From contig NZ_CP095757.1 in NCBI RefSeq assembly GCF_023093535.1, positions 1,178,001 through 1,242,000 on the forward strand: DNA of 64,000 bases, read 5' to 3'. The notes under the pieces are model-generated. The model searched no databases. It was not told the DNA's origin and was given only the letters and a program-made list of their open reading frames with translations. Source of the stretch: Halovivax limisalsi. Its GTDB lineage: Archaea > Halobacteriota > Halobacteria > Halobacteriales > Natrialbaceae. Below are positions 3,519 through 62,150 of this stretch, one piece after another. Position 1 is the first letter of the stretch, and the number at the start of each line of letters is the position of its first letter. A program made the translations under genes and the position numbers.

Positions 3519-4313
3519 ATGCTCGACCTGCAGTTCTCCGAGGCCGAACTCGAGACGCGGCGCGAACACGTCGTCGATTTCATCCGCGACCAGGCGGACG
3601 CGGCGGGCGCCGACGGGGCCGTCCTCGGGCTCTCCGGCGGGATCGACAGCACGCTCACCGCCCACCTCGCCACCGAGGCGCTCGGCCCCGAGAACGTCCG
3701 CGGACTCGTCCTTCCGGCTCGCGTCAGCGCGGACGAACACAGGAGCGACGCCGAACGCGTCGCCCGCGACCTGGGCATGACGTTCGACGTCTTCGAGGTC
3801 GAATCGGTCGTCGACGTCCTGCTGTCGGCCTATCCCGAGGCCGAGGGCGACCACCGGGCGGTCGGTAACGCTCGCGCTCGCGTGCGAGCGGTGTTCAACT
3901 ACCTCGTCGCGAACCACGAGAATCGCCTCGTGCTGGGGACGGGGAACCGCAGCGAGGCCGCGGTCGGCTACTTCACCAAGTACGGCGACGGCGCCGTCGA
4001 CTGTCACCCGATCGGCAACCTCTACAAGGCCCAGGTCCGCCAGCTCGCCCGCCACGTCGGCGTCCCCGACGACCTCGTCGAGAAGACGCCGACGGCGGAA
4101 CTCTGGGCGGACCAGACCGACGAGGGCGAACTCGGCATGGACTACGACACGCTGGATGCCATCCTCGCGACCCACGTCGACGGGCCCCTGTCCGTCGCCG
4201 CGACGGCGCGGGAACTCGACGTCGATCGGGCGACCGTCGACCGCGTCCGGGCGCTCTACGAGGCGAGCGAACACAAGCGAAACCCGCCGCCGGCGCCCGA
4301 CCCGATCGAGTGA
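3519..4313 (+). CDS. nadE: NAD synthase, ammonia-dependent
   Basis: 264 residues from the ATG at 3519; an in-frame GTG at 3477 would add 14 residues unlike the family. NadE adenylates nicotinate adenine dinucleotide and amidates it to NAD. The PP-loop SGGIDS is at residues 39-44, and the conserved segment KTPTAELWADQTDEGELGM lies near residues 187-205. No glutaminase (nitrilase) domain is present, so free ammonia is the expected nitrogen donor. The size fits single-domain archaeal NadE. Confidence 0.95.
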   Translation: MLDLQFSEAELETRREHVVDFIRDQADAAGADGAVLGLSGGIDSTLTAHLATEALGPENVRGLVLPARVSADEHRSDAERVARDLGMTFDVFEVESVVDVLLSAYPEAEGDHRAVGNARARVRAVFNYLVANHENRLVLGTGNRSEAAVGYFTKYGDGAVDCHPIGNLYKAQVRQLARHVGVPDDLVEKTPTAELWADQTDEGELGMDYDTLDAILATHVDGPLSVAATARELDVDRATVDRVRALYEASEHKRNPPPAPDPIE

Positions 4314-7659: not shown

Positions 7660-7674
7660 AGTAATTATATTACT
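7660..7674 (+). promoter_or_regulatory. TATA-box palindrome of structured RNA copy A
   Basis: AGTAATTATATTACT is a palindrome containing a TATA core (TTATAT, 7665-7670). Its centre lies 28 nt before the first base of the structured RNA. The same element with the same 28-nt spacing precedes copy B at 61623-61634. Confidence 0.65.
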
Positions 7675-7695: not shown

Positions 7696-7838
7696 GGAAG
7701 CCACGCGCTCCGCTGGGGGTAGAAATGCCCCGGGTGATAGGGCCACCCGAGACGTGGCTTCCAAATCCCGATCAGGGATTTTGTCAGCCATGATTGCGTA
7801 CACACCTCTGAGACAAAAAGGTCTCGCACGCCTGCGGT
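7696..7838 (+). ncRNA. Structured RNA / 5' leader, copy A
   Basis: Predicted fold: P1 pairs 7696-7705 (GGAAGCCACG) with 7753-7762 (CGTGGCTTCC). Inside P1 lie P2 (GGGG 7716-7719 with CCCC 7728-7731) and P3 (GGGTG 7732-7736 with CACCC 7744-7748), making a three-way junction. P4 follows at 7763-7781 (AAATCCC/GGGATTT), and P5 at 7810-7825 (GAGAC, loop AAAAAG, GTCTC). A second copy at 61656-61810 keeps each helix with changed bases in P2 and P4. It could be a riboswitch-like leader or a small RNA. No known class was recognised. Confidence 0.65.
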
Positions 7839-7942
7839 CTAGAGAGTCGAATCGCTATCCGCCGTTCACGTTCGGTTTCGAGGATTGGGGGCCGAGACGC
7901 ATCCCCGGGTCGGCGTCGCCGGAACGGAGGGCTCTCGGATGA
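7790..7942 (+). CDS. Short leader ORF within the structured RNA, copy A
   Basis: 50-codon ORF starting in the conserved sequence CAGCCATG between P4 and P5. Its N-terminal peptide MIAYTPLRQKGLARLRSR matches copy B (MLRYQPPRQKGLARLRYR) and the rest diverges. Its TGA (7940-7942) overlaps the ATG (7939) of the zinc-ribbon gene, as in copy B. The shared core is identical at the nucleotide level, with unusual codons (AGA, CAA, AAA), so RNA-level conservation may be the real constraint. Translation is unproven. Confidence 0.4.
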   Translation: MIAYTPLRQKGLARLRSRESNRYPPFTFGFEDWGPRRIPGSASPERRALG

Positions 7943-8193
7943 AATCCGTCGAGCGATCCCGCGGCGGAGGGGGCGAGCCGGCTCGCAACCGCGCGTGTTA
8001 CCGGTGTGATCGCACCGTGGCGCCGTCCGCCCTCTTCAGAATAGAAATCGCGCCGCCGGCGTCGCTCGCGGAGAAGTACGCGGACGCGGTGCGGTACTGC
8101 TGCGAGGGATGTGCGGCCGGGATGAACCTCTCGGACTTCTCTGATCGGTGGGAGGCGGCTGCACGTCCGCGTGACGAACGGTCGAACGGTTGA
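7939..8193 (+). CDS. Small zinc-ribbon protein, copy A
   Basis: 84 residues with two CxxC pairs: CYRC near residues 20-23 and CEGC near 55-58, the second preceded by another Cys. This suggests one structural zinc. It is paralogous in layout to the protein at 61896-62150, and both follow the structured RNA and leader ORF. The ATG at 7939 is chosen over an upstream in-frame ATG at 7885 because of the overlap with the leader ORF stop and because homology to copy B begins after it. The role is unknown; a nucleic-acid or protein adaptor is possible. Confidence 0.6.
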   Translation: MKSVERSRGGGGEPARNRACYRCDRTVAPSALFRIEIAPPASLAEKYADAVRYCCEGCAAGMNLSDFSDRWEAAARPRDERSNG

Positions 8194-61622: not shown

Positions 61623-61634
61623 AGTTATATAACT
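61623..61634 (+). promoter_or_regulatory. TATA-box palindrome of structured RNA copy B
   Basis: AGTTATATAACT is a perfect palindrome with a TATA core at 61625-61630. Its centre is 28 nt before the first base of the RNA, identical to the spacing in copy A. Confidence 0.65.
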
Positions 61635-61655: not shown

Positions 61656-61810
61656 GGAAGGCACGCTCCACTTCGACGCGGGGGCATGCGCGATAGAATG
61701 TCCCGGGTGGGCCAACACCCGAGACGTGGCTTCCGAAAACCCAGTACGGTTTTCAGCAGCCATGTTACGCTACCAACCTCCGAGACAAAAAGGTCTCGCA
61801 CGCCTGCGGT
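61656..61810 (+). ncRNA. Structured RNA / 5' leader, copy B
   Basis: Same fold as copy A. P1 is 61656-61665 with 61725-61734 (one G-G mismatch). P2 is 61681-61687 (GGGGCAT) with 61698-61704 (ATGTCCC). P3 is GGGTG 61705-61709 with CACCC 61716-61720. P4 is GAAAACC 61735-61741 with GGTTTTC 61748-61754. P5 is CGAGAC 61781-61786 with GTCTCG 61793-61798. P4 and P2 differ from copy A in both strands while keeping pairing; P5 and the next 15 nt are nearly identical. Confidence 0.65.
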
Positions 61811-61896
61811 ATCGCCAGCCAATGCTCCGTCCCGTTCTGGATTCGGATTCGAAACTGAGCGGTGACGGTACCCACCTTTCATTGGGGGTCGTCTGA
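61762..61896 (+). CDS. Short leader ORF within the structured RNA, copy B
   Basis: 44-codon ORF starting in CAGCCATG. It begins MLRYQPPRQKGLARLRYR and then diverges from copy A. Its TGA (61894-61896) shares a base with the ATG (61896) of the zinc-ribbon gene. Ending exactly at the next start codon in two diverged copies argues for translational coupling; peptide function, if any, is unknown. Confidence 0.4.
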   Translation: MLRYQPPRQKGLARLRYRQPMLRPVLDSDSKLSGDGTHLSLGVV

Positions 61897-62150
61897 TGGG
61901 ACGCTACGAGTACGATCGACCGTCGCCGGGTCGCGCCTGCGAGCGCTGCGGGCAGGAACTCACGGACGCACACAGCGTTCGGCTGGTCGCGGTCCACGAA
62001 GGCGCGCACGCGGATCGCTATCGAGACGTGGAGAAACACGTCTGCGGCGACTGCGTCGCGGCGCTCGGGTTGCTCGCGTTCGCGGAGGTCGAGCAGTCGG
62101 GCGGCTCGATCGCGGAGCGACTCGAACCGGTATGGACGATCGGGGGGTGA
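61896..62150 (+). CDS. Small zinc-ribbon protein, copy B
   Basis: 84 residues with CERC (near residues 15-18) and CGDC (near 50-53), expected to bind one zinc. It ends with a helical, acidic part (LAFAEVEQSGGSIAERLEP). It has the same size and layout as the protein at 7939-8193 and follows the same RNA and leader ORF. Function unknown. Confidence 0.65.
   Translation: MGRYEYDRPSPGRACERCGQELTDAHSVRLVAVHEGAHADRYRDVEKHVCGDCVAALGLLAFAEVEQSGGSIAERLEPVWTIGG

Follow-up and report, generated by a model that had tools for sequence, protein, structure and literature searches.

We identified a family of structured RNAs at the 5' ends of haloarchaeal genes, and two of its copies lie in the window, that is, the whole stretch of 64,000 nucleotides of the Halovivax limisalsi genome that was analysed. 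Each RNA precedes a short leader ORF that runs into the start codon of a downstream gene, here called the cargo. The evidence consists of a covarying structure, an alternative complementarity over the leader start codon, two folds of similar computed energy, a conserved stop/start junction and a coding signature in the leader. We put the probability at roughly 60% that this is a cis-acting, bistable 5' leader RNA which gates initiation at the leader AUG, the cargo being reached by termination and reinitiation. Under such a scheme the two folds would alternate in the cell, the OFF fold would block initiation, and reinitiation would drive translation of the cargo.

Two copies of the element in the window

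Both copies are on the forward strand and share a common layout. In copy 1 a TATA-box-like element (TTATATTA, 7665-7672), the counterpart of an A+T peak seen upstream of the RNA across loci, precedes the RNA core at 7696-7762. This core was matched by covariance models R1 and R2 and contains the stems P1 (7696-7705 with 7753-7762), P2 (7715-7719 with 7727-7731) and P3 (7732-7736 with 7744-7748). Next come the P4 hairpin (AAATCCC-GATCA-GGGATTT, 7763-7781), which would form the apical extension of the alternative (OFF) hairpin, and the sequence AGCC-AUG (7786-7792), which is complementary to the 3' arm of P1 (7753-7759) and lies over the leader start codon. The leader ORF (7790-7942) has 50 codons from ATG 7790 (CAGCCATG) to TGA 7940-7942, and its codons 7-13 include a further hairpin, P5 (GAGAC-AAAAAG-GTCTC, 7809-7826), marked by register pairing and rare-codon bias. 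The cargo (7939-8193) encodes an 84-residue CxxC zinc-ribbon-like protein, and its ATG (7939-7941) overlaps the leader TGA as ATGA.

In copy 2, the TATA-box-like element (TTATATAA) is at 61625-61632 and the RNA core, again supported by a covariance-model match and by covariation, at 61656-61734, with P1 at 61656-61665/61725-61734, P2 at 61681-61687/61698-61704 and P3 at 61705-61709/61716-61720. P4 (GAAAACC-CAGTAC-GGTTTTC) occupies 61735-61754. In the fold predicted to have the lowest energy, AGCC-AUG-UU (61758-61766) is paired to the 3' arm of P1 (61723-61731). The leader has 44 codons (61762-61896; ATG 61762, TGA 61894-61896) and the cargo, an 84-residue CxxC...CxxC protein (61896-62150), starts at ATG 61896-61898 within a TGATG overlap with the leader stop. 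A reading made earlier from the sequence alone had claimed that the leader ends on the zinc-ribbon start codon in both copies, and our analysis confirms this. The two leaders have in common the N-terminus M[IL]xYxPxRQKGLARLR and have diverged in the remainder.

Structure and covariation of the RNA family

The order of elements is the TATA box about 30 nt upstream, P1, P2, P3, P1', P4, the start flank, the AUG and P5. In the long forms, the 5' strand of P2 sits in the loop of a small stem, giving a possible pseudoknot, and the small P2 stem needed for it has moderate support (8.43 versus 7.14, sd 0.33). In the alignment of 44 diverse members 97.1% of cells were paired, compared with 28-49% when it was slid, and 15 of the 19 pairs showed double changes, the observed values being reached by none of 500 shuffles; because the covariance model itself fits the sequences to the structure, this alignment leans towards that structure, and shared ancestry was not fully corrected. 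MAFFT and RNAalifold applied to all copies missed P2 and P4 because their lengths vary, and the P2 pairs were set by hand and then tested on the covariance-model alignment. The P4 stem varies in sequence among copies while its pairing is kept in most of them. Only three unpaired positions are conserved at 85% or above across the diverse set, with more within the family to which Halovivax belongs.

The RNA thus has a covarying, aptamer-like structure in the 5' UTR, as a riboswitch does. Rfam 15 yielded no match at or above the curated score, the window giving only two tRNAs, and a search of eight loci against Rfam at E values up to 1 found no family beyond tRNA and one chance match. Across the 181 loci of our parsed set, A+T content is maximal at -34 to -26 from the RNA start. 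Given that the archaeal TATA box sits near -26 (PMC8707807), the position of this peak would place the transcription start about 3-5 nt before P1.

Two individual observations on structure may be added. In one copy of the Halovivax genome (L032, 468-677) the P2 loop holds two additional hairpins and both P2 strands are retained, which is consistent with long-range P2 pairing. In addition, palindromes (such as TACCGTATACGGTA and AACTACGTAGTT) lie directly 5' of the RNA at five loci from other families (L172, L176, L181, L186 and L188) and may be operators.

Distribution and downstream genes

The sequence-only reading had proposed a search for further loci that combine the RNA, the leader and a CxxC protein, and such a search proved productive: the covariance model of the RNA core alone found 29 copies in the Halovivax genome, and a search with copy 2 found about 30 places. 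The parsed set of 181 loci comprises these 29, together with 131 loci of relatives within the family and 21 loci of other families; L038, L173 and L182 were left out, being fragments or false matches. Within the class, model R2 detected the RNA in 176 of 392 sampled genomes, in 64 of 86 genera and several families, and in a sample of 197 genomes from the phylum all 10 positives belong to the same order as Halovivax. Three genomes of a genus in another family (G183, G338 and G361) hold about 9 to 15 copies each, and one locus (L160, genome G212) has three tandem copies (318-387, 2038-2107 and 3561-3630) spaced about 1.5-1.7 kb apart. Three Halovivax copies (L012, L024 and L035) are decaying, with a ribbon frameshift or loss of the leader start, indicating a probable birth-and-death turnover of the family. 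We found no earlier description of this RNA in the open-access papers searched.

The RNA was also found on the haloarchaeal plasmids NZ_CP100453.1, NZ_CP100460.1, NZ_CP054711.1 and CP002989.1, and in two small plasmids it stands immediately 5' of SWIM-like genes with no separate leader. Where elements that match the L068 query lie in public plasmid records, no feature is annotated. Among viral sequences, one IMG/VR contig (L232) carries the RNA with an E value of 7e-9, and three other IMG/VR matches (L220, L222 and L229) did not resemble the element. The Halorubrum viruses BJ1, Humcor1 and DL1 have a layout at the operon head that is similar by eye, including GCTGTC...GACAGC-ATG. None of them scored with the model in a whole-record search, the BJ1 score in a small search was weak (E 0.004), and the elements of these three isolated haloviruses are look-alikes and not confirmed members. 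In BJ1 (L255, AM419438.1, 1632-1720), the annotated ORF7, with a valine start, begins inside the look-alike; the ATG after GACAGC is a better start candidate, which suggests a misannotated gene start.

Downstream of the RNA, at least two CxxC-like motifs occur in the ORF at 113 of the 155 loci counted in the Halovivax family. Zinc ribbons, the cargo seen in that family, are the commonest type, and the other types are HalOD1, SWIM fingers and operons with RAMP (Cas7-like) genes; in another genus the cargo is HalOD1-like, in some cases accompanied by a ribbon and in others not. Of three cargos tested against HalOD1 (PF18545), the highest-scoring was borderline, at 25.6 bits just below the cut-off of 26.3 (E 1.4e-5). 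No Pfam or NCBIfam family scored above its cut-off with the leader and ribbon of the window, and the best score against known small zinc finger families was 16.3 bits for one cargo with HVO_2753_ZBP, whose cut-off is 33.2. A search for a solved relative of the copy-2 ribbon found none, and an AlphaFold2 model of this protein, built on four sequences, had a mean pLDDT of 52, too low to be of use. At L174, L183 and L189 the RNA leads operons with RAMP genes, one of which matches Csm3 models (E 8.5e-5); these are consistent with HRAMP (PMC8730458) and possibly represent such systems.

The variety of cargo bears on what might set the fold of the RNA. In a protein-triggered version of the switch, the cargo protein (zinc ribbon, SWIM or HalOD1) or another RNA-binding protein would do so, and in size and kind the small CxxC cargo proteins do resemble many nucleic-acid binders. 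The small number of invariant unpaired positions and the many paralogous RNA/cargo pairs per genome would also suit autoregulation. However, the RNA is constant while the cargos at different loci (ribbon, HalOD1 only, SWIM or RAMP operon) are not related to one another, which makes a single shared contact between cargo and RNA unlikely, and we regard autoregulation as somewhat doubtful.

A predicted alternative fold over the leader start codon

The 3' arm of P1 shows complementarity to the bases that cover the leader AUG, and this match covaries. In the other families, the pairing energy of arm and start flank was -12.3 kcal/mol for real pairs and -8.2 for swapped ones (sd 0.59, lowest of 2000 -10.1), and in the Halovivax family -12.0 and -11.2 (sd 0.09), shared ancestry being only partly controlled in this comparison. 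The complementarity peaks at the start codon in both groups and is about -4 to -7.4 away from it. Clear examples are GGTCTTC with GAAGACC-AATG (L181), GGTTGTC with GACAACC-ATG (L174) and GGCTTTCTC with GAGAAGCC-AATG (L179). The RNA has two mutually exclusive folds of similar computed energy: the difference between the forced OFF and ON folds has a median of +1.5 kcal/mol with quartiles of -1.0 and +4.8, these and the preceding energies referring to standard parameters (37 C, 1 M NaCl) and not to haloarchaeal salt.

In most cases P1 by itself exceeds the alternative duplex in stability, and the RNA might therefore simply stay ON. Its role would then be constitutive and structural, namely to stabilise the mRNA at its 5' end or to recruit ribosomes, with the start complementarity as a by-product and no switching. 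P1 is very stable and begins a few nucleotides from the predicted transcription start, and transcripts of Haloferax volcanii are mostly leaderless (PMC6728339), so that a special leader might aid initiation. On the other hand, the start complementarity covaries in every family with a P1 arm that itself changes, and it is strongest at the AUG, neither of which a passive stem needs, and we consider a leader of this constitutive kind unlikely.

The leader ORF and its junction with the cargo

A leader ATG is present in 178 of 181 loci, 13-36 nt after P1. Where the leader stop was readable (176 leaders), an ORF of at least 40 residues starts at -4, -1 or +2 of the stop in 120 cases, as ATGA, GTGA or TGATG, and at +1 in 10 more, whereas control stops in the same sequences have an ORF at the former positions in 660 of 4060 cases (16%). 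Stop and start thus overlap by 1 or 4 nt as in coupled gene pairs, and the overlap is conserved while the length and sequence of the leader diverge. In H. volcanii, coupling was strict in 9 of 9 overlapping pairs tested (PMC6728339). The conserved overlap lends sequence-level support to the translational coupling that had been proposed for the two window copies, and the idea that structured 5' UTR, leader and small CxxC protein form one module has also gained ground, since they recur as a unit.

Some loci depart from this arrangement. The leader is fused in frame to the ribbon in L031, L034 and L036, and to a CTRCG protein in four copies of genome G183 (L178, L184, L190 and L192); in the latter, the fusion is followed by a GTGA overlap with a gene of 174 amino acids that has no Pfam match. 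A broken leader upstream of a retained gene, which the sequence-only reading had named as evidence against its proposal, does occur in a few loci: in L026 the leader stops early and the ribbon starts at +20, in L049 the leader ATG has become AAG, and in L099 the leader runs past the ribbon start. Because the ribbon frame remains open in all three, coupling may not be required at every locus. In L035, L012 and L024, broken leaders or copies accompany damaged ribbons or ribbon frames.

From codon 17 onward, the leader has a pN/pS of 0.59 in frame and of 0.94 and 1.03 in the other two frames, with 0.40 for the cargo in the same comparison; the values come from equal-length pairs of relatives, which are not independent. 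On this in-frame ratio the leader body looks translated, and we take it to be a weakly constrained coding sequence.

The first 16 codons behave differently, with a pS of 0.143 as against 0.378 for the remaining leader. In the Halovivax family, codon 8 is AGA for 81 of about 92 arginines (background in the window 1.4%), codon 9 is CAA, CAT or TAT wherever it encodes Gln, His or Tyr (backgrounds 15%, 9% and 10%), codon 10 is AAA in 153 of 157 leaders (24%) and Ala-13 is GCA in 105 of 119 (5%), so that codons 8-13 are nearly all rare synonyms. P5, across codons 7-13, is 82% paired in its fixed register in this family and 12-44% in other registers, and residues 8 and 12 tend to swap jointly from R..L to G..P, which replaces an A-U by a G-C pair. 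In other families, residue 10 is K, E or N and only the nucleotide pattern is retained. A universal P5 hairpin in a fixed register did not hold up outside the Halovivax family, where the nucleotide motif at codons 9-10 persists. The rare synonyms, low pS and hairpin pairing indicate that the conserved stretch is mainly an RNA element, and the conservation of YxPxRQKGLARLR appears to be largely at the nucleotide level. The conserved, functional basic peptide envisaged by the sequence-only reading is not supported by these features or by the change of residue 10 to E or N, and a peptide-level reading of RQKGLAR was rejected on the codon statistics.

The same reading had also raised attenuation, in which translation of, or stalling on, the conserved basic peptide would control downstream expression. 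The leader has several features that would fit it: a conserved stretch (RQKGLAR or YKRPAR), rare codons that could slow ribosomes, AGA among them, and a coding appearance. Nevertheless, the stretch is conserved mainly as nucleotides, down to swaps that match the base pairs, and not as the conserved peptide or regulatory codon run that would mark an attenuator leader peptide; its K gives way to E or N in other families, and no terminator or antiterminator alternative came to notice. Classical attenuation is without support and in our view improbable, and the evidence favours control of initiation at the leader AUG through alternative base pairing. An RNA that acts in trans, as a regulatory small RNA or as the RNA antitoxin of a small toxic peptide, might likewise be compact, structured, multi-copy, adjacent to a small ORF and present on mobile elements, but this RNA is always immediately 5' of and continuous with an ORF, its structure extends into the coding region and the cargo is not toxin-like in Pfam, NCBIfam or PADLOC, which leaves action in trans very improbable. 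Least credible of all is a role at the DNA level, as operator, promoter or dispersed mobile repeat, with no RNA function, since the many dispersed copies, palindromic stretches and conserved upstream TATA region that would fit it are outweighed by compensatory changes in stems with asymmetric loops and by the fixed order TATA-RNA-ORF, the single orientation to the gene and the position after the predicted transcription start.

Proposed mechanism

In the bistable leader that we favour, the 5' end of the transcript would close P1 around a pseudoknot-like P2 and P3 in the ON fold, leaving the leader AUG accessible. Ribosomes would then translate the leader ORF, whose first codons are themselves part of the RNA (P5), and, having terminated at the start codon of the cargo, would initiate anew at that point. 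The OFF fold would instead pair the 3' arm of P1 over the leader AUG, with the P4 hairpin extending this pairing, so that the AUG is masked. A ligand, a protein, salt or temperature, or the kinetics of folding might act as the trigger. The leader body would mainly serve to bring ribosomes to the junction, which would explain a divergent body next to a preserved junction. Where no separate leader exists, as in viruses, plasmids and some genomes, the RNA would gate the first ORF of the operon directly. A broader proposal, which we make tentatively and hold to be possible, is that this is a sensing RNA specific to archaea, perhaps a true riboswitch, common to haloviruses, plasmids and chromosomes, through which one shared signal sets many small zinc-binding regulators or viral first operons via a gated leader ORF.

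Significance and comparison with known systems

Few structured regulatory leaders are known in archaea, and haloarchaeal transcripts are mostly leaderless. An RNA found across a whole class, with up to 29 copies per genome and a presence on viruses and plasmids as well, would amount to a translational control system common to haloarchaea. Hundreds of leader regions and small ORFs that lack annotation would gain a named function, and translational switching in archaea could be put to a direct test in haloarchaea that are amenable to genetics. The RNA is also a caution that short conserved "leader peptides" can be disguised RNA elements.

In translational riboswitches, as in this RNA, the 3' arm of the closing stem can pair with the translation start, the folds are exclusive and the structure is at the 5' end of the mRNA; here, however, the AUG of a leader ORF would be masked and not a Shine-Dalgarno sequence. 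Unlike many metabolite riboswitches, the RNA has few invariant unpaired bases and matches no Rfam family. The cargo resembles the HVO_2753-type and C(P)XCG zinc finger proteins (PMC11241148, PMC10716476) in being very small, haloarchaeal and equipped with CxxC pairs, but falls below the cut-offs of these families, and no such RNA leader was found for them in the open-access papers searched. HRAMP (PMC8730458) shares RAMP (Cas7-like) genes with the operons at L174, L183 and L189, which are one cargo among several here, and the passages on HRAMP in that paper make no mention of this RNA. Control of a short upstream ORF, with the gene reached by translational coupling, is likewise found for iraD and CsrA (PMC5574718), although this is a bacterial, protein-controlled single case without a large structured RNA family. 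Termination-reinitiation in haloarchaea (Huber et al. 2019, PMC6728339) also uses ATGA and TGATG overlaps, as at most junctions here, but those pairs consist of two ordinary genes, whereas the upstream ORF here is a fast-diverging leader under a putative RNA switch, in up to dozens of copies per genome. Overall, start-site masking together with coupling is a known principle, and what is new, as far as tested, is the RNA itself, its distribution over archaea, viruses and plasmids, and a leader ORF whose start lies inside the RNA.
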